A DNA stretch of 64,000 nucleotides from Spirochaetaceae bacterium (GCA_007693485.1 REDM01000178.1:1-64000), one strand, 5' to 3'; shown: positions 10,990 through 20,676, counted from the first letter of the stretch. Numbers and translations: made by a program. Notes: generated by a model not told the origin, from the sequence alone.

Positions 10990-12402
10990 GTGTCCGACCA
11001 CAGCCACAACGATCGTTCGGCCACGCTGCTCTGCGTTGATGTCGGGACATCGGCGATCAAGGCTGCCCTCATGCGCTACGACGGAACCTGTGCCCACTTC
11101 GAGTACGAGCGACTCCCCGTCGAGGCGCACGACGCCGATCGCTTCACTGCCGGGCTCTGGATGACCCACTTTTCCCGTCTGCTGCGCCGGATGATGGGAC
11201 GGGAAACCATCACCGGGGTGGTAATCAGTGGAAACGGGCCAACGATTGTCGCGGTGGACCGAAAGGGACGGGAAGTGGAGCCGGTCATGCTCTGGTTCGA
11301 CGGGCGGGAGCTGCGGATCTCCGGTGAGCCCTCCTTCTTCCTTCCCAAAATCGCCTGGTTTGCCGAGACCTTTCCGCGTCGGTTTGCGTCGGTCGCCCTG
11401 CTGCTCTCCTGTCCCGAGTATCTGAGCTATCGGCTCACCGGTGAGGCGTGTACCATCTCACCGTCCGACGAGTTTTCTTCCTTTATCTGGACACCGGACG
11501 GGATCGCCCGCTATGGATTGGATCCATCCCTGTTCCCGCCGATCGTCTCGTGCGGTACCGTGATTGGTGCGGTCCAACCGGCGATTGCCGCGGAGCTGGG
11601 AATCCCCGACGGGGTGCCCGTGATTGCCGGCGGCTCGGACTTCCTGATGAGCCTACTAGGCACGGCAACGGTGCTCCCCGGGCGCACCTGCGACCGCGCC
11701 GGCACCTCTGAAGGCATCAACCACTGCAGCGCCACCGTGGTTGACGATCCGCGGCTGCGCTGCCTTCCCCACGCGGTGGCGGGGCGGTACAACGTGGCGG
11801 GCATTCTCTCGTCCACGGGTCGGATCTTCGAGTGGTTCCGCGAGATCTCGGGACAGACCTCGGTTGCCTACGCCGACATACTCGAGGCGATCACGGCTCT
11901 TCCCTTCGACCGGCACATTCCCTGGTTTTTTCCCTCCATGCACCGCGGTGCCGCGTGGGAGTTCAGCCGCGGGATGTTCATCGAGCTCGGCGCACAGCAC
12001 GGCGTCGCGGAGATGGGACGCGCGGTGGTCGAGTCCATCGGCTACGCGGTGCGCGAAAGCGTGGACATCCTTGAGGAGAACGGCTGCGCAATTGATGAGC
12101 TGCGGGTATCCGGAGGCCAGGCAAAAAACGGCCCGTGGAACCAGATGAAGGCCGACATGATCGGCAAGCCGATCATCGTCGGGCAGATTGCCGACGCGGA
12201 GATCGTGGGCAACGCGTGTGCGGGGCTGGTTGGTCTTGGTCGATACGCTCGCCTCGATGAGGCGGCCGAGGCGCTCTATCGGGTATCGGCGCGCTACGAG
12301 CCCGACCCTGCGCGCCACCGCCGCTACCGCGACGGCTACGACCGGTATCAGCAGGCGTACGCTGCGTTTCGCCGCGCACTCGCAGACACGGGGTCACCAT
12401 AG
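10990..12402 (+). CDS. FGGY-family carbohydrate kinase
   Basis: 470 residues from the GTG at 10990, which has AGGGAGAT just upstream; the longer ORF from ATG 10933 would run through the promoter. Phosphate-binding segment CVDVGTSAIKAALM, substrate-side VMLWFDGRE, and the second-domain blocks GRTCDRAGTSEG and ELRVSGGQAKNGPWNQMKAD are those of FGGY kinases (XylB/GntK group), which phosphorylate pentoses, pentitols or similar sugars. Divergent from the BMP importer operon, suggesting that the importer brings in its substrate or a nucleoside-derived sugar. Exact sugar unknown. Confidence 0.85.
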   Translation: MSDHSHNDRSATLLCVDVGTSAIKAALMRYDGTCAHFEYERLPVEAHDADRFTAGLWMTHFSRLLRRMMGRETITGVVISGNGPTIVAVDRKGREVEPVMLWFDGRELRISGEPSFFLPKIAWFAETFPRRFASVALLLSCPEYLSYRLTGEACTISPSDEFSSFIWTPDGIARYGLDPSLFPPIVSCGTVIGAVQPAIAAELGIPDGVPVIAGGSDFLMSLLGTATVLPGRTCDRAGTSEGINHCSATVVDDPRLRCLPHAVAGRYNVAGILSSTGRIFEWFREISGQTSVAYADILEAITALPFDRHIPWFFPSMHRGAAWEFSRGMFIELGAQHGVAEMGRAVVESIGYAVRESVDILEENGCAIDELRVSGGQAKNGPWNQMKADMIGKPIIVGQIADAEIVGNACAGLVGLGRYARLDEAAEALYRVSARYEPDPARHRRYRDGYDRYQQAYAAFRRALADTGSP

Positions 12403-12406
12403 GCCG

Positions 12407-15400
12407 TCAGGGCGATTCCATCAGATAGCGCAGATAACACTCGCGTACGAAGGATCGGGTTGACCCAAGCTCATCGTAGAAATCTCCCTCCAACGACATC
12501 GCGCGCTTCATGCGTTTGGCAAGCGCCGTTCTCAGCTCGGGGCTCGACGGGAGTCGGTGAACCTGGCGGTCTTCAAGAATCTGCAGAAAGTGTTCCACGC
12601 GTCGCAGCAGCACGTAGGCGTGACTCAGACGCTGCGCGGTTGCCGTATCCAGCGAACCGTGTTCGGCGAGCGCGGCCAGCGCCTGCAGGGTGTTACCCGA
12701 GAGCAGCGCGTCACCGGACCGACCATGGATCATCTGCAGCCCCTGAACCAGAAACTCAATATCGCGAATGCCCCCAACTCCGTTCTTGACGTCGTTGTCC
12801 GTATCGGAGCGGTCCACCGCGGTATCGCGAAGCGACGAGATGGACGCCCGGATCTGCTCGGGGGAGCCGGAAGCAAAAAAGGCGGGTTTTACCGCTTCCA
12901 GGAACGACCACCCCACCGGGAGGGCACCGGCAATTGGGCGAAGTTTGAGCAGCGCCTGGTGCTCCCAGAGGGACGCATTCTGTTCGTAGTAGCGAATCAG
13001 AGACGCGGTCGGCTGGGCGAGGGTGCCGGACGAGCCGAAGGGGCGCAGGCGCAGATCCACGCGATAGAGGTAGCCTTCCGCGGTGTGGTTGGAGAGCGCG
13101 GCGCGCAGCTGCATCATGACCGTATCAAACAGCCGCTGATCGCGCGCGCGGTTGGCTTCCGGCCCCGGGTCAAAAAGGGCAAGCAGGTCGATGTCCGAGC
13201 TGTAGTTGAGCTCTCCGCCCCCCAGTTTGCCGAAGGCAAGCACGCAGAACCGCTCGCGCTCGTCCGGTCGGTCCGACGCGCTCCAGATTCGGTCCAGGGC
13301 CACCCGGGTCAGGGCGCAGGCCAGATCGGACAACTCGGCGGTAATCTCGGCGAGCGGGGCGTGCAGACAGATGTCGCGGGTACCAATCCGCAGGACCTCG
13401 CGGCGACGAAACCGGCGGAGCGCGTCGAGCCAGTCTTCATCATTGAGGTTGCGATCGACCACCGCCTGAAGATCGAGAAGGAACTCATCGAGCGTGCGCG
13501 CCCGACGGACCACTTCATACGCGGTTGCCCACTCGAGGAAGTCCGGATTCTGGATCAGGGTGTCGGAGAGAAACTGGCTTCCGGCAAAGATGGCGATCAG
13601 GATGCGAAGGCGTTGCGGTTGAGTCTGCAGTTGCCGAAGGTGTTCCTCCGGGTTCTCGATTGCCTCAACAAAGGTCTCCCAGTTATTCAGCGCCATGTCC
13701 GGGTCTGGGCAGGCACGCACCACATCCCAGGCGAGAATGGCAAGCTCGGCAAAGAGGAACTGCCGGTCGCCTTCCCCGGCGAGGCCGCTCCAGTTTCGAT
13801 ACGCCCGCTGGATGTTGGTAAAGCCCCCGGCGCTGAGGATGGCCTCTTTGCGCTGGTCGTCTATATCCTCGGTAAGAATCAGGTCGGCGATGTTGCCGGT
13901 TGCACTCCCGGGCAGCGCATCACGACCGAGCTCTCGCTCCACAAATGCGCGCACATCAGCCGATCGCGCTTCAAACTCCATGTGCAGCTGCTCGGCGGGG
14001 GAGAGTTCTCCGCGGGTCTGGTACCCCATGCGCCGCGCAAGGTGGAGGTACTCCAGCGAGTCAAGCTCCGGAAGAAAAAGGTCCTGGGCGTTGCCGCGCA
14101 GCATGCGTAGTCCGTTGATCAGAATGCGGAAAAACCGGTACGCGGCAACCAGTCGTGCCGCGTACTGCTCGTGCATGCGTCCCGCTTCAACCAGTGCGTG
14201 CAGCGCGCGGTGAATCCGTGGCGTTCGGAGGGCGCGGTTTGTGCATCCGTGAATCACTTGTAGAATCTGTACGCTGTACTCGAGGTCAACCAGTCCGCCG
14301 GGGCTGAACTTGGCGTTGAGCCGTCCCTCCGCACTCTTTTCCTGCAGCTGCAGCGCCCGGAGTCGCTTCAATTCGGGCAGATCGATCGATTGGCCCGAAT
14401 AGATCAGATCATCGCGGATGCTCTGTACGTGTTTTGCCAGTTCGCGGTCGCCGCCGATGCGCCGCATGCGAACCAGAGCGAGTCGTTCGAGAGCCACCGC
14501 TTCGCGGCTGTAGTAACGGGCAAACGAAGCCAGACTTACTGCAACCGGACCGGCGTTTCCATGGGGACGCAGACGCAGGTCAATATGGAAAATTCCTTCG
14601 CGTTTTGCCTCTATGAGCGAGACCGCTTCCTGGAACATTCTGTTGAAATACTCCCGGTTCTCGATGGACTCCGAACCGTCGGTGCGCCCGTCGTCAGAGT
14701 AGAGAAACATCAGTTCGATGTCGGACGCGTACCCCAGCGCCTCTCCGCCCAGCTTTCCCAGCCCCATGACCGCCCAGGATGCGGGGAGTCCCGCCACGCT
14801 GCGAGGGGTACCGTAGCGCTCTGTGGCCTCCTGCACTGCGATGTCGAGCGCCGCGTTCACAATTGCCTCAGCAAGCGCGGTGAGCCGGGTACTGAGGAAA
14901 AAAAACTCAAGCGAGGGATTCCGAATGTGGTCCAGATCGATGAGGTAGTTCTGGTTGTCCTTGAAATCGTTCAGGGCGCTTCGTTTCTGGTCCCGGGTGG
15001 TCTTGTCCGCGAGCACCCGTTGCAGCGACTCGGTCATCTGCTCGGGCTCCAGGCTCAGCAGCGTTTCACTGTCCGAGGGGTCGAGCATGGGAAGTACCGT
15101 TTCATACTGCAAGCGCAGGAAGTCTTCCCACAGGTAGTCGCTTGCGCCGAGCAGACGTGCCAGGTCCTGAAGGACTTTGGGGCTGGAGAGAAGGCTTCCG
15201 ATGGTTCCCTGGCGAGAGAGGTGAATGAAGTCCTGGATCATCGTCTCAAATCGTTGCAACGAGCGGTAGGGGTCGGGCGATTGATGGAGGAAGTAGGTGA
15301 ACTGCTTGGTAAAGGCAACCGAAAGGCGCAACTGGTTCAGCCACTGTTCGTCCTGCACCGCAGCGCCGGTGGCGTCAACCAGATCAAAACTGTCTTCGAT

Positions 15401-16231
15401 GCGCCGGCCATTGGTTCGAATCTCCACGTGTTCGATTGATAGTCCGTGCAGGGCAATCGCACTGCTGAGGGCGTAGAGAAAAAACGGCGTGTCCTCGGAG
15501 AGGATCTTCATGCGGGTGGTTTCGGTTACGGCTGTATCAAACTCTACGTCCACCGGGTAGAGGATCCGCTCTGCCTGGATGGTCGACTCGGCGAGCGCTT
15601 CGACCACAAGCTCGTTGATCGCCTGCTTCGCGGCTTCCAGACTCTCGGCAGTATTGCGATGCAGCAGAGGAATAAAGCGCCCGAGTTCAGCCTCAAAGCG
15701 CGCAAGCCATTCGTTCGCCGGTTCACGGATCCGTCCCGTGAAGCTGTCGACAATAATCCGTTTCCCACGCCCGCTGGTGCGGTCGGTCGCTTTCAGCCGC
15801 TGATGCTGCAGGTAGCGTGCGCGCGAGTCACGGTTGGGAAACACCCTGCGCAGCTCCCGTTGGTCGATTTCCTGAGCGGGATCATCGGTTGCGTCTGCGC
15901 CTGTACGCGAGGTGTAGATGTCACCGGCGGTCACGTTGAACCCGGTAGCGGCGAGTACGCCGGTCAGCACCGAGAACTCAGCAGCGTAATCCCACGCAAC
16001 CACCGTTACCGTTACCTCGGACTCACCGTCGCCGGTGTGTGGGCCCTTTGTCATCGAGAGGCGAAAGAGTCGCTCGCCGTCGAGGCTCGCGGCCAGGGTG
16101 AGGTGATCGGCAATTTCCTGCGGGGGGCGCTCGGCGGTATACCGCTCCGGCATGGTCTCGAGCCAGTTCTGTACCCGCTCGCGGGGCAGGTCAGGTACGA
16201 GTCGGGCGATCGCTTCTTCTGCGGGTTGCAT
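12407..16231 (-). CDS. glnE: GlnE-like glutamine synthetase adenylyltransferase with two N-terminal ACT domains
   Basis: 1274 residues, about 320 more than usual for GlnE. Residues about 72-165 and 238-290 read as GlnD-like ACT domains: VTVVAWDYAAEFSVLTGVLA followed by IIVDSFTGRI, and MKILSEDTPFFLYALSSAIA followed by IEDSFDLVDATG. Two nucleotidyltransferase/HD-like halves follow: GLGKLGGEALGYASDIEL (about 490-507) with DLRLRPHGNAGP, and AFGKLGGGELNYSSDIDL (about 999-1016) with VDLRLRPFGSSG. GlnE adenylylates and deadenylylates glutamine synthetase. The first half has D-x-E where the family usually has D-x-D. I start at ATG 16231; the ORF extension to 16363 would run back across a terminator and into the PII gene. 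No separate glnD is in the window. Confidence 0.88.
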   Translation of the reverse strand: MQPAEEAIARLVPDLPRERVQNWLETMPERYTAERPPQEIADHLTLAASLDGERLFRLSMTKGPHTGDGESEVTVTVVAWDYAAEFSVLTGVLAATGFNVTAGDIYTSRTGADATDDPAQEIDQRELRRVFPNRDSRARYLQHQRLKATDRTSGRGKRIIVDSFTGRIREPANEWLARFEAELGRFIPLLHRNTAESLEAAKQAINELVVEALAESTIQAERILYPVDVEFDTAVTETTRMKILSEDTPFFLYALSSAIALHGLSIEHVEIRTNGRRIEDSFDLVDATGAAVQDEQWLNQLRLSVAFTKQFTYFLHQSPDPYRSLQRFETMIQDFIHLSRQGTIGSLLSSPKVLQDLARLLGASDYLWEDFLRLQYETVLPMLDPSDSETLLSLEPEQMTESLQRVLADKTTRDQKRSALNDFKDNQNYLIDLDHIRNPSLEFFFLSTRLTALAEAIVNAALDIAVQEATERYGTPRSVAGLPASWAVMGLGKLGGEALGYASDIELMFLYSDDGRTDGSESIENREYFNRMFQEAVSLIEAKREGIFHIDLRLRPHGNAGPVAVSLASFARYYSREAVALERLALVRMRRIGGDRELAKHVQSIRDDLIYSGQSIDLPELKRLRALQLQEKSAEGRLNAKFSPGGLVDLEYSVQILQVIHGCTNRALRTPRIHRALHALVEAGRMHEQYAARLVAAYRFFRILINGLRMLRGNAQDLFLPELDSLEYLHLARRMGYQTRGELSPAEQLHMEFEARSADVRAFVERELGRDALPGSATGNIADLILTEDIDDQRKEAILSAGGFTNIQRAYRNWSGLAGEGDRQFLFAELAILAWDVVRACPDPDMALNNWETFVEAIENPEEHLRQLQTQPQRLRILIAIFAGSQFLSDTLIQNPDFLEWATAYEVVRRARTLDEFLLDLQAVVDRNLNDEDWLDALRRFRRREVLRIGTRDICLHAPLAEITAELSDLACALTRVALDRIWSASDRPDERERFCVLAFGKLGGGELNYSSDIDLLALFDPGPEANRARDQRLFDTVMMQLRAALSNHTAEGYLYRVDLRLRPFGSSGTLAQPTASLIRYYEQNASLWEHQALLKLRPIAGALPVGWSFLEAVKPAFFASGSPEQIRASISSLRDTAVDRSDTDNDVKNGVGGIRDIEFLVQGLQMIHGRSGDALLSGNTLQALAALAEHGSLDTATAQRLSHAYVLLRRVEHFLQILEDRQVHRLPSSPELRTALAKRMKRAMSLEGDFYDELGSTRSFVRECYLRYLMESP

Positions 16232-16246
16232 ACCCGTGCACTCTAC

Positions 16247-16282
16247 AAAAAAACGGCGCGAAGGACAAAGGCCCTTCGCGCC
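16247..16282 (-). terminator. rho-independent terminator between PII gene and glnE
   Basis: Perfect 10-bp stem GGCGCGAAGG (16255-16264) / CCTTCGCGCC (16273-16282) with an 8-nt loop. On the minus strand it is followed by seven U (A-run 16247-16253). It lies 33 bp after the PII stop and 16 bp before the glnE ATG. Confidence 0.9.
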
Positions 16283-16314
16283 GGGTGTGTGATATGAGCG
16301 AAACCAGCTGAGCG

Positions 16315-16656
16315 TCAGCCGATCGCTTCTTTTCCTTTCTCCCCGCTTCGGATGCGGATGCAATCCTCAAGCGGCAGTACAAAGATCTTGCCGTCACCGA
16401 TCTCTCCGGTTCGCGCTCCGCGAATCACGGCGTCAATGGTGGTCTGGACAAAGTCGTCGTTCACGGCGATCTCGATGCGCGTCTTCTTCAGAAGATTCAC
16501 CTCGATGTCAACGCCGCGGTACGATTCGGTGTACCCCTTCTGCTGTCCGCAGCCAAGGGAGTTTGTCACCGACATCTTGAAGACCTCCGACTTGTACAGC
16601 TCTTCTTTTACGTCGTTCAGCTTGTGCGGCTGAATGTATGCGATGATCAGTTTCAT
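16315..16656 (-). CDS. glnK: PII signal-transduction protein lacking Tyr51
   Basis: 113 residues, standard PII length, starting at ATG 16656 six bases after AGGGAGA; an in-frame GTG at 16662 sits directly on the SD. ATP and 2-oxoglutarate residues are conserved: G37, Q39, K40, K58, the TGEIGDGK loop (G87, G89, K90), R101 and R103. The T-loop reads [13 protein letters not shown], so position 51 is Ile and position 49 is Val. Neither uridylylation at Tyr51 nor the cyanobacterial Ser49 phosphorylation is possible. It follows amtB by 12 bp, so it is the GlnK-type partner that blocks the ammonium channel. Confidence 0.95.
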
Positions 16657-16668
16657 TGCCACTCTCCC

Positions 16669-18012
16669 TTACATGTTGCTGAAGATCTGGAATCCGGCGT
16701 ACGACTCCATACCGTGTTCACCGATGTCGAGACCGATGAGTTCCTCGGTTTCCGTTACGCGCAGCTTACCAGCAGCCTTCAGAATGCTGAACAGGATGAG
16801 CGTGGTAACCACAACCCAGGCAAACACCGCGACAACACCTACAAACTGTACACCGAGCTGGCCGATTCCGCCACCGTAAAAGAGCCCAACTACGTCCGGA
16901 TCGTTTACACCGGTTGCGAAGAGGCCAACCGCCAGAGTACCCCAGACACCGCAGATACCGTGGACGGAGATCGCACCAACGGGATCGTCAATGTGGAACA
17001 CCTTGTCGAAGAGCTCTACCGAACCCACAACGATGATACCGGCAATGAGACCCACGATGACCGACCCAAAGGGGCTGATGACCCAGGTTCCCGCCGTAAT
17101 GCCAACCAAGCCTGCCAGCGCACCGTTGAGCGAGAAGCTCGGATCCGGCTTTCCAAACGCAAACCATGAGGTGAACATGGCCGCCACGGCACCCGCTGAT
17201 GCGCCAAGGGTGGTGGTCACAAAGACGTGAGCGATGTCAAGGTCGGTTCCCGACAGGGTGCTTCCCCCGTTAAACCCATACCAGCCAAACCAGAGGATGA
17301 AGACGCCCAACGCGGCCAACGGCATATTGTGTCCGGGGATCGCCTTGGGAACAATCTTGCCGTCCACCTTGACGTACTTGCCCTTGCGGGGTCCCAGAAT
17401 GATCGCACCAACCATGGCCGCCCACGCACCAACGCTGTGCACGACGGTGCTTCCGGCAAAGTCATGGAAACCCATGCCGCCCAACCAGCCGTCGTCACTC
17501 CAGATCCAGTGTCCCGAGATCGGATAAATGATCGCGCTGATAATCACGCTGTAGATCAGATAGCCGGTGAACTGAGTCCGTTCAGCCATCGCTCCAGAGA
17601 CAATGGTCGCAGCGGTTGCGGCGAAGACCACCTGGAAAAACCAGTCCCGGTAGATCTCGTAGTCGGCACCGGCCAGGAAGAACTCGTCGGTTCCAAGAAA
17701 TCCACCTGCAGACGCTCCGTACATGAGCGCCCAGCCGATGGCCCAGTACGCAAGCGCGCCCGCCGAGAAGTCCATCAGGTTCTTCATGATGATGTTACCC
17801 GCGTTTTTTGCACGGGTAAGACCGGTCTCCACCATCGCGAAACCCGCCTGCATGAAGAACACCAAGGCACCTGCCAGCACAAGCCAGATCATGTCGAACG
17901 AGCTCTGATAGAGGTCCAACAGTTCGGCTGTGGCGGCATCCTGTGCGTACAGAGCAGTCCCACTAAGGAGCATGACAGCTGCAAAACACAGGAGAAGGAT
18001 CTTTTTGTTCAT
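16669..18012 (-). CDS. amtB: ammonium transporter AmtB
   Basis: 447 residues with a cleavable signal peptide (ending GTALYAQ) and eleven expected membrane helices. Amt landmarks include GFAMVETGLTRAKNAGNI, DFAGSTVVHSVGAWAA with the first pore histidine, and GAISVHGICGVWGT with the second. It conducts ammonium across the inner membrane. SD AGGAGGGC precedes the ATG. A sigma-54 promoter lies 45 bp upstream and a NifA-like activator gene ends about 190 bp beyond that, so expression is probably induced under nitrogen limitation. Confidence 0.97.
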   Translation of the reverse strand: MNKKILLLCFAAVMLLSGTALYAQDAATAELLDLYQSSFDMIWLVLAGALVFFMQAGFAMVETGLTRAKNAGNIIMKNLMDFSAGALAYWAIGWALMYGASAGGFLGTDEFFLAGADYEIYRDWFFQVVFAATAATIVSGAMAERTQFTGYLIYSVIISAIIYPISGHWIWSDDGWLGGMGFHDFAGSTVVHSVGAWAAMVGAIILGPRKGKYVKVDGKIVPKAIPGHNMPLAALGVFILWFGWYGFNGGSTLSGTDLDIAHVFVTTTLGASAGAVAAMFTSWFAFGKPDPSFSLNGALAGLVGITAGTWVISPFGSVIVGLIAGIIVVGSVELFDKVFHIDDPVGAISVHGICGVWGTLAVGLFATGVNDPDVVGLFYGGGIGQLGVQFVGVVAVFAWVVVTTLILFSILKAAGKLRVTETEELIGLDIGEHGMESYAGFQIFSNM

Positions 18013-18056
18013 CGTAGAAGCCCTCCTAAAAGAATTGGTTACTCTGGCTGTCAGTT

Positions 18057-18072
18057 AGCAAAACACATACCA
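18057..18072 (-). promoter_or_regulatory. sigma-54 promoter of amtB-glnK
   Basis: On the minus strand the sequence is TGGTATGTGTTTTGCT, matching TGGYAYG-N4-TTGCW, with GG and GC exactly 10 bp apart. The start of transcription would fall near 18046, 34 bp before the amtB ATG. Confidence 0.85.
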
Positions 18073-18163
18073 ACAAAATGGTTTGAGGAGAGAAAAATTT
18101 AAACCAATGTGGGGGAGTGATTTATCTATAACACCATGTGGAGAGCGATGAAAGCGGGAAGGC

Positions 18164-18201
18164 CATTCTCGTCCTCCGTGCTGAAAGAAGCAACGAGAAT
18201 G
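18164..18201. promoter_or_regulatory. inverted repeat, candidate upstream activator site
   Basis: CATTCTCGT (18164-18172) and ACGAGAATG (18193-18201) form a perfect 9-bp inverted repeat about 90-145 bp upstream of the sigma-54 promoter. No U-run follows the stem on either strand, so a terminator is unlikely. The remaining sequence 18073-18260 is AT-rich and shows no ORF. Confidence 0.4.
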
Positions 18202-18260
18202 TAGTAAAAAAGACGAAACAAAACAGAAATGTCAGTTGGCGGTGGGGGAGCGTCGGGATC

Positions 18261-19826
18261 TCAGCGGCCGGCCCGGAAGGCGCGCGGGTCCACGCCGTGC
18301 TTCTGCACGCGCAGTCCCATGATTCGCTCGCTGACCTTCAACAGACGGGCTGCCTTGGCCATATTCCCTTTGGTGGATTTGAGTGAATCCATCAGGAGTT
18401 CGCGCTCGAGGTTGTCGAGGGATTCCTGCAGCGAGCCCGATACGCGGGTGTCGGTTGACTCTGCGGATTGAAGAGACGGTGGAAGGTGATGGCTGTGAAT
18501 CACCTCGTCGACGCTGAGCAGAACCGCACGTTCGATGCAGTTCTCCAGTTCGCGAACATTTCCCGGCCAGTGGTAGTTGACCAGGAGATCGATCGCCGGC
18601 GTAGATATCCGGCGGATCTCGGTGTGGTTTGCTTCGCTGTACTTTCCCACGAAGTGGTCGGCAAGCAGCAGGACGTCGCTCTTTCGTTCGCGAAGCGGTG
18701 GAATCAGGATCGGGAAAACGTTCAGGCGGTAATAGAGGTCTTCGCGGAACTGTTCGGTCTCCATGAGCCGCTCGAGGTTGCGGTTGGTCGCCGTAATGAT
18801 TCGGACGTTCGCCCGGATGGTTTCGTTGCCTCCAACGCGCTCGAACTCCTTCTCCTGGAGAACCCGCAGCAGTTTCACCTGGAGCGTGGGCGAAAGATCG
18901 CCGATCTCATCGAGAAAGATCGTACCGCCGTTGGCCAGCTCAAAACGCCCTTTGCGCATGCTGATGGCACCGGTGAATGAACCCTTCTCGTGTCCGAAGA
19001 GTTCGCTCTCTATCACCGTCTCGGGCAGCGCGGCGCAGTTCACTTTAATGAAGGGTCGGGCGGCGCGTGGGCTGTTGTAGTGGATCGCCTGCGCTACCAG
19101 CTCCTTTCCCGTGCCGCTCTCTCCGCGGATCAGTACCGTCGCCTCGCTGCGCGAGACCTGCGCGATCATGTCGAAGACCGCCTGCATCGCCTTGGAATTC
19201 CCGATGATGTTGGACGGTTTGAACTTCTCGCGCAGCTCTTCGTGGAGACGGGTGTTCTCCTCTTGCAGGCGCCGTTTCTCTTCCATAATGTTCTGTCGGA
19301 TCTTCACCGCCTGTGCGACAAGCGAACAGACCACCGTAAGCAGCCGGGCATCCTCTTCGAGTTGTTCCCCCGGCGCCATCGGCCGGTCAACGCTCAGGGC
19401 TCCGATGGTTTCGTTTCCGATTTTGATTGGAATACAGAGAAACGAGATCTCTTTCTGTTTCACACCCTTGCGAGCGCCGGTTTTGTTCAGAAAGGTGGGT
19501 TCGTCGGAGATGCGGGGAATGATCTTGAGCTTGCCACTCTGTACCACGGTTCCGGTGACGCCTTCTCCCAGGACGTAGCGGCCTCGCTCGCGCTGACTGT
19601 TGGAGAGTCCGTACGCGGCCTCGATAAAGATTTCGCCGGTCTGCCGGTTCAGCAGGGTGATTGCGCCGCGCACCATCCCGAGGTGGTCGGTTACCGCCTT
19701 GAGCACCGGGTGAATTACCAGTTTCAGGTCCATGCTCTGGTCGAGAATCTGGCTTATCTCGAACAGGAGTGAGAGTTCTTCAAATTTTCCCCGGTATGAA
19801 AGTGGAGCGGTTTGCTCTGAGACCAC
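18261..19826 (-). CDS. nifA: NifA-like sigma-54-dependent transcriptional activator
   Basis: 521 residues with an N-terminal GAF domain (about 20-190) and a short coiled linker. The central AAA+ domain has Walker A GESGTGKE, the sigma-54-contacting loop written GSFTGA rather than GAFTGA, and Walker [10 protein letters not shown]. The Fis-type C-terminal helix-turn-helix ([20 protein letters not shown]) has the MGLRV-KHGVDP tail seen in NifA proteins. I start at GTG 19826, eight bases after GAGGAGG; the ATG at 19859 lacks an SD. It lies directly upstream of the sigma-54-driven amtB operon. No nif structural genes are in the window, so it may be a general nitrogen regulator. Confidence 0.82.
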
Positions 19827-19876
19827 AGATTTGCCTCCTCGGACATGCAACGCTACCATAATGTAAGAAAGAACTC

Positions 19877-19904
19877 AACAGAGGTCCATCGGCTGTTCTC
19901 TGTT
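19877..19904. promoter_or_regulatory. inverted repeat between divergent genes
   Basis: AACAGAG (19877-19883) / CTCTGTT (19898-19904), perfect 7-bp arms with a 14-nt spacer, between the NifA-like gene and the HAD gene. Possible operator; no further support. Confidence 0.25.
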
Positions 19905-19947
19905 TTCTCCGTATTTGGTAGACTGACCGCCACCAACGGGAGGCTTC

Positions 19948-20676
19948 ATGCGGCTGTTTCTGGATTTTGACGGAGTTGTCTGTGACTCGGTGGGCGAAGC
20001 GCAGGTCGCCTCGCATCGCGCCTACTGCCAGAAGGTGCTCGGCAGCAGCGCAGATGAGCTCTCGGAGGACGACCGCGCACGGTTCATCTCGTACCGGCCC
20101 TTCATACGCAACGGCGAGGACTTCGTGCTGCTGCAGCAGCTGATCCGGGAAGGTATTCAACTTTCCAGCCAGGCCGACTTTGACCGTGAGCTGCTGCGCG
20201 CGGGAGCCGCGACGATGCAGCGCTATCGCGACGCGATCTACTCCGTGCGTGAACAGATGCTCGCTGAAGATCGCGCCGGCTGGCTCGCGCTCAACCGCAT
20301 CTATCCGCACGTTCGCGCGGTCATCGATCGACCGGCTGGCGATGATCGCTGTTTCATTCTCTCCACCAAGAAGGCGCAGTACATCAACGAGATCCTGAAC
20401 GGGGAGGGCGTCCGCTGGCCGGCAACGCGCATCATCAGTACCGAGGGTCGCGAAAAAGTGACGCTGATTGAACAAACTGCGGGCGGCGACAACGAGATCC
20501 ACTTTGTGGAAGACCAGCCCGACCACTTTCCCTCACCCGGTGAGAGGCCGGCCGCGCTACACTGCGTACTCGCAACCTGGGGATACATCCAGCCTCAGTG
20601 GCTGGAGTCTTCGGCGTACACCACCATCGGACCGCAGGAGTTTGCGGATTTTCTTGATCGACTGTTGTCCCGATAG
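19948..20676 (+). CDS. HAD-superfamily hydrolase
   Basis: 242 residues. Motif I is FLDFDGVVCDS with both catalytic aspartates, motif II is ILSTKK, and motif IV is HFVEDQPDHF, giving a complete HAD phosphatase active site. A helical cap lies between residues 20 and 115. SD GGGAGG precedes the ATG. Substrate unknown. Stands alone between the nitrogen block and a convergent hypothetical gene. Confidence 0.8.
   Translation: MRLFLDFDGVVCDSVGEAQVASHRAYCQKVLGSSADELSEDDRARFISYRPFIRNGEDFVLLQQLIREGIQLSSQADFDRELLRAGAATMQRYRDAIYSVREQMLAEDRAGWLALNRIYPHVRAVIDRPAGDDRCFILSTKKAQYINEILNGEGVRWPATRIISTEGREKVTLIEQTAGGDNEIHFVEDQPDHFPSPGERPAALHCVLATWGYIQPQWLESSAYTTIGPQEFADFLDRLLSR

Follow-up and report, generated by a model that had tools for sequence, protein, structure and literature searches.

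ACT-GlnE is a conserved family of spirochaete proteins in which GlnE is preceded by a module homologous to the entire C-terminus of GlnD, in genomes that have lost GlnD and in which nearly all PII proteins have lost Tyr51. We consider it probable that this module is the glutamine-sensing end of GlnD, fused to GlnE in a family that has dispensed with both GlnD and the PII tyrosine, and that the ACT pair is under glutamine control in its new position.

Organization of the ACT-GlnE protein

The member described here is encoded on the minus strand of the window (the whole 64,000-nucleotide stretch that was analysed, to which all positions refer), where a reading frame is open throughout from its ATG at 16231 to 12407 (12407..16231; all other features given below are likewise on the minus strand). 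ORF translation, Pfam, NCBIfam and the phylum sample define its product as a 1274-aa ACT-ACT-GlnE. Pfam finds GlnE twice, GlnD_UR_UTase twice and ACT in this protein, and no HD (uridylyl-removing) domain; the protein lies below the full-length NCBIfam cut-offs.

Residues 1–66 (MPERYT...EIADHL; 16034..16231) constitute a pre-ACT helical segment, homologous to the GlnD segment preceding ACT1 as judged by hhalign and AlphaFold2. ACT1 follows at residues ~70–192 (15656..16024; β70–80, α87–95, β99–107, β159–169 and α172–192 from AlphaFold2 and hhalign) and contains a basic, arginine-rich insert at residues ~109–156 (ELRRVFPNRDSRARYLQHQRLKA; 15764..15907), delineated by alignment and modeled by AlphaFold2 as a low-confidence helix. 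This insert is conserved, and among the aligned sequences it is present only in the window genus. ACT2, located by Pfam, NCBIfam and AlphaFold2, spans residues ~239–317 (15281..15517; β239–246, α251–261, β265–274, β277–285 and α295–317). The N-terminal nucleotidyltransferase half occupies residues 319–815 (13787..15277), with its catalytic motif, GKLGGEALGYASDIELMFL, aligned at 14702..14758; the C-terminal half occupies residues 816–1274 (12410..13786), with its motif, GKLGGGELNYSSDIDLLAL, aligned at 13175..13231. Both halves carry the GlnE-type motifs GKxGG...SDxD/E and DxRLRP, the N-terminal half having D-x-E in place of D-x-D.

Like GlnE of E. coli (PF03710/PF08335; 1V4A, 3K7D), ACT-GlnE is built from two homologous nucleotidyltransferase halves, each with a catalytic motif, and is found in genomes encoding a GS with the target tyrosine, often in an adjoining gene. 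It differs in having the N-terminal, GlnD-type ACT-ACT module and the D-x-E of its N-terminal half.

The N-terminal module is related to the GlnD C-terminus

The sequence-only reading had proposed two GlnD-like ACT blocks in the N-terminal ~300 residues, and profile and structural comparisons bear this out. In a scan restricted to the first 320 residues, ACT2 (residues 246–289) scores 28.3 bits against a Pfam ACT cut-off of 27 bits, whereas ACT1 (about residues 70–192) falls under the cut-off, so that the Pfam search succeeds for one of the two domains while structure prediction yields both folds. Residues ~202–303 match NCBIfam GlnD models (E 4e-22) in alignment with the C-terminal ACT of GlnD, and the C-terminus of a further GlnD model, PRK03381, aligns to residues 9–295. 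A profile–profile comparison (hhalign) of 15 ACT-GlnE N-termini with the C-termini of six spirochaete GlnDs gives 98.6% probability and E 1e-15 over residues ~13–300; the alignment takes in the helical segment preceding ACT1 and keeps the two ACT domains in register. AlphaFold2 predictions for four sequences show the beta-alpha-beta-beta-alpha arrangement twice (pTM 0.70), for which the best Foldseek matches in the PDB are the ACT-bearing region of the mycobacterial large glutamate dehydrogenase and single ACT domains. The first ~317 residues are therefore homologous to the pre-ACT helices, ACT1 and ACT2 of GlnD. Because the homology takes in the helical segment as well as both ACT domains, the fused piece corresponds to the entire GlnD regulatory tail and not to a stray ACT domain, and a derivation of the ACT pair from GlnD is supported by these sequence comparisons.

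In GlnD (TIGR01693) the same helical segment, ACT1 and ACT2, homologous over ~290 residues, are C-terminal; in ACT-GlnE they are N-terminal to GlnE, and the GlnD nucleotidyltransferase and HD domains are absent. The mycobacterial large (180 kDa) NAD-glutamate dehydrogenase has an ACT-type fold and a similar pre-ACT helical segment but is a different enzyme with low sequence identity. Plant ACR proteins such as ACR11 have GlnD-like ACT repeats, but are plant ACT-repeat proteins without GlnE; this type of domain is discussed as an amino-acid sensor (PMC3173338; PMC12702975).

The ligand loops of the module have diverged. The glycine of the ACT2 loop (DxPG in GlnD-type ACTs) is replaced by Phe in 14 of 15 sequences and by Tyr in the remaining one (G066), and the ACT1 glycine is Ala in the window genus and lost in several sequences. 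Glutamine may consequently bind differently, at one site, or not at all. These substitutions throughout ACT2 and in several ACT1 domains, the basic genus-specific insert within ACT1 and the fact that ACT domains bind many amino acids lend some weight to a reading in which the module senses a nucleotide or a different amino acid, has no more than a structural role, or serves to dock PII or GS. We nevertheless regard this as unlikely, since the homology is specific to GlnD, which senses glutamine in this very pathway, and reaches beyond the ACT domains, and since the module co-occurs with the loss of GlnD.

Order of the catalytic halves

E. coli GlnE has its AMP-removing activity (AR) in the N-terminal half and its AMP-adding activity (AT) in the C-terminal half (PMC12409994). 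This standard order is not found in ACT-GlnE, which appears to have an AT-like half followed by an AR half. The C-terminal half is of AR (deadenylylase) type by every measure applied: (i) its HMM scores are 366 bits for AR and 252 for AT; (ii) the hhalign profile scores are 723 and 503, respectively; (iii) the best PDB match is 1V4A (AR, 157.6 bits), ahead of 3K7D (AT, 124.2 bits); (iv) nearly every pairwise score favors AR and (v) it carries the AR signatures ELNYSSDID, GGIRDIEF and LRRVEHFLQ (LRRxExxLQ). In trees, the ACT-GlnE C-terminal halves and standard AR halves form one clade with support of 98/94, or 81/93 under different sampling; two long branches were removed from the larger half-domain tree, and the actinobacterial halves, which grouped together probably for compositional reasons, were excluded from the clade test.

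The N-terminal half is less easily assigned. It scores nearly equally against AR and AT (405 versus 392 by hhalign; 223 versus 206 bits by HMM), and pairwise scores often favor AR, the slower-evolving type. The trees place it outside AR and on the AT side with moderate support, 3K7D is its best structural match by a small margin over 1V4A, and its GYASD and GGLVDxE signatures are AT-like. An AT identity for this half therefore appears the better assignment, principally from the trees. Its D-x-E, present in all 14 aligned proteins, is compatible with nucleotidyltransferase chemistry in general. A structure prediction of the half from three sequences (pLDDT 51.5, pTM 0.37) was not used.

Taken together, we think it very probable that the order of the halves is swapped in ACT-GlnE. 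The competing possibility, which concerns the half order and not the ACT fusion, is a collinear GlnE with the usual AR-AT order, in which unequal evolutionary rates produce an apparent swap. The near-equal profile scores of the N-terminal half, the lean of its pairwise scores toward AR and the best stretch of the full-length NCBIfam models, which runs collinear, are all in keeping with this; the consistent AR scores and the AR signatures of the C-terminal half, its clade with AR halves and the signatures of the N-terminal half are not, and the collinear tree is rejected under both samplings (AU p 0.013 and 0.0008), making the collinear arrangement improbable. The sequence-only reading had described a complete double GlnE; both halves are indeed present, but their non-standard order had escaped notice.

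Loss of GlnD and of PII Tyr51

The initial impression that GlnD is missing holds genome-wide: in the source genome (92% complete, 304 contigs), PF08335 matches the ACT-GlnE gene only and there is no full-length TIGR01693 match. In 61 near relatives, no GlnD passes the family cut-off, under which spirochaete GlnDs usually score, and no GlnD-length match is found among those listed either. In an evenly drawn sample of 296 Spirochaetota genomes, GlnE is encoded by 25, of which 14 have ACT-GlnE and 11 an ordinary GlnE. GlnD is present in 0/14 of the former and 6/11 of the latter (Fisher p 0.003, a descriptive value that ignores kinship), and none of the 13 GlnD-positive genomes of the sample has ACT-GlnE. 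GlnD without a GlnE found by this query occurs in G029, G035, G038, G074, G094, G171 and G194.

Five genomes of a single family (G049, G056, G078, G103 and G108; 1.3–1.8 Mb) have an ordinary GlnE of ~930 aa with neither GlnD nor ACT, and GlnD can therefore be lost where GlnE carries no fusion. The three of these genomes that were placed in the tree have a highly divergent AT half (branch length 3.7), and some of the family's PIIs retain Tyr51.

The PII of the window (GlnB/GlnK family; 16315..16662, from Pfam and alignment) has Ile at residue 51 (codon 16504..16506), which supports the earlier suggestion that it cannot be uridylylated. Tyr51 is kept in 2 of 20 PIIs of ACT-GlnE genomes, as compared with 18 of 19 from the six genomes having both GlnE and GlnD (Fisher p 6e-8, again descriptive and with kinship ignored); the two exceptions are in G195 and one of three PIIs in G066.

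E. coli GlnE is reported to respond to glutamine directly, so an action of glutamine on GlnE is not new in itself. Together with the retention of PII beside glnE and the activation of R. rubrum GlnE by unmodified PII (PMC3480911), this response would fit a scheme in which glutamine acts at a site that ordinary GlnE already has, unmodified PII does the rest and the ACT pair only modulates. R. rubrum GlnE is itself reported as unresponsive to glutamine, according to the title of a paper cited in that article (ref. B5 in PMC3480911). A merely modulatory role is quite doubtful given that the module is kept in 12/12 complete copies of the phylum sample, is absent from ordinary GlnE and tracks the loss of both GlnD and Tyr51.

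GS target and gene neighborhood

The target of adenylylation is intact. The only GS in the source genome is a type I enzyme with the adenylylation site LDKDIYDLPP (Tyr397 region), and the motif D[KR][DN][IL]YD is present in the main GSI of every ACT-GlnE genome where it was read. The glnA gene adjoins ACT-glnE in G066, G122, G123, G150 and G223. An amtB-PII pair adjoins it in the window genus, G066 and G091 and is located 5–7 kb away in G006 and G046; in the window genus, the PII gene is directly upstream of glnE. The window's AmtB ammonium transporter gene (16669..18012) has as its neighbor a gene for a GAF-AAA+-HTH sigma-54 activator of NifA-like layout (18261..19859). Most of the ACT-GlnE genomes examined have such an activator beside amtB-PII; it is a candidate nitrogen regulator.

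A strong intrinsic-terminator-like hairpin (16254..16283) lies between PII and glnE. A stem-loop separates the two genes across the window genus, taking textbook terminator form in the window itself and in L011, and co-transcription is therefore not to be assumed. Every copy in the genus (L010, L011, L012 and L141–L144) has a conserved GTAGAGT from a few bases to ~15 nt 5′ of the glnE start codon. The stem-loop and this element suggest a separate, possibly leaderless glnE transcript. No Rfam family is found within 12000–20000.

Distribution of the family

The survey of other spirochaetes called for by the sequence-only reading shows that the architecture spans several orders of Spirochaetota. 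Full-length copies account for 12 of the 14 ACT-GlnEs of the phylum sample (frames of ~1230–1319 codons), all with the N-terminal module; the other two (G011 and G024) are at contig edges, carry the ACT region and are counted among the 14. The 11 ordinary spirochaete GlnEs are mostly 920–960 aa and lack the module. Among the near relatives, 52/61 match ACT-GlnE, with assembly breaks in several, and a scan of genome contigs returned four close loci only. The source assembly is fragmented into 304 contigs, but an artefact or a chance fusion in one metagenome-assembled genome is refuted by the occurrence of ACT-GlnE in four single-contig genomes (G006, G046, G122 and G195) and in dozens of others.

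Outside the Spirochaetota, where the distribution is based solely on GlnEs from a plasmid collection, none of 30 GlnE-bearing records (17 genera, mostly proteobacteria and actinobacteria) has a match upstream of residue 317. No description of an ACT-GlnE fusion or of a half-swapped GlnE was found in the titles and abstracts searched, among which subscription journals are thinly covered.

A proposed model for glutamine control of ACT-GlnE

The co-occurrence across the phylum of a GlnD-derived ACT pair, the absence of GlnD and the loss of Tyr51 makes a direct glutamine input on GlnE, by way of putative binding to the ACT domains, the best reading of the sequence data. In the model we propose, the sensor of the cascade would have moved from GlnD onto GlnE, and control of GS would have become monocyclic. 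PII uridylylation would afterwards have served no purpose, leading to loss of both GlnD and Tyr51. Glutamine, acting directly or at the ACT1/ACT2 interface, would set the conformation of the ACT pair, such that high glutamine favors adenylylation of GS and low glutamine permits deadenylylation, in place of the PII/PII-UMP signal of E. coli. With the apparently reversed half order (ACT-ACT, AT-like, AR-like), the sensor would abut the AT-like half.

The sequence-only reading went further in suggesting control without the PII relay. The GlnD-derived ACT domains, the missing GlnD and Tyr51, and their co-occurrence uphold the core of that interpretation, but PII-free control is unsupported: the PII gene is directly upstream of or near glnE, and unmodified PII activates GlnE elsewhere (PMC3480911). 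The proximity of the two genes in several genomes leads us to expect that PII persists as an input, and unmodified PII is probably a second signal to ACT-GlnE that would report 2-oxoglutarate and ATP/ADP. The loss concerns the uridylylation step, not necessarily PII itself.

We regard as evenly balanced the fuller proposition that ACT-GlnE is a self-contained, glutamine-gated GS switch, in which a bicyclic cascade has been made monocyclic by a sensor placed on a half-reordered GlnE in contact with its transferase half, and that PII uridylylation thereby became dispensable and was then lost across several Spirochaetota orders.

Textbooks illustrate cascade signaling with the GlnD-PII-GlnE-GS bicycle. 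If the model is correct, the sensor has moved one step down this cascade, and the upstream enzyme and the relay's modified residue have disappeared in parallel. ACT-GlnE would then show how a signaling cascade can shorten, and would make the contribution of the uridylylation step directly testable. The family may also offer a route to solving glutamine sensing by GlnD-type ACT pairs and, in a GlnE with reordered halves, a system for studying crosstalk between the two activities of the enzyme.
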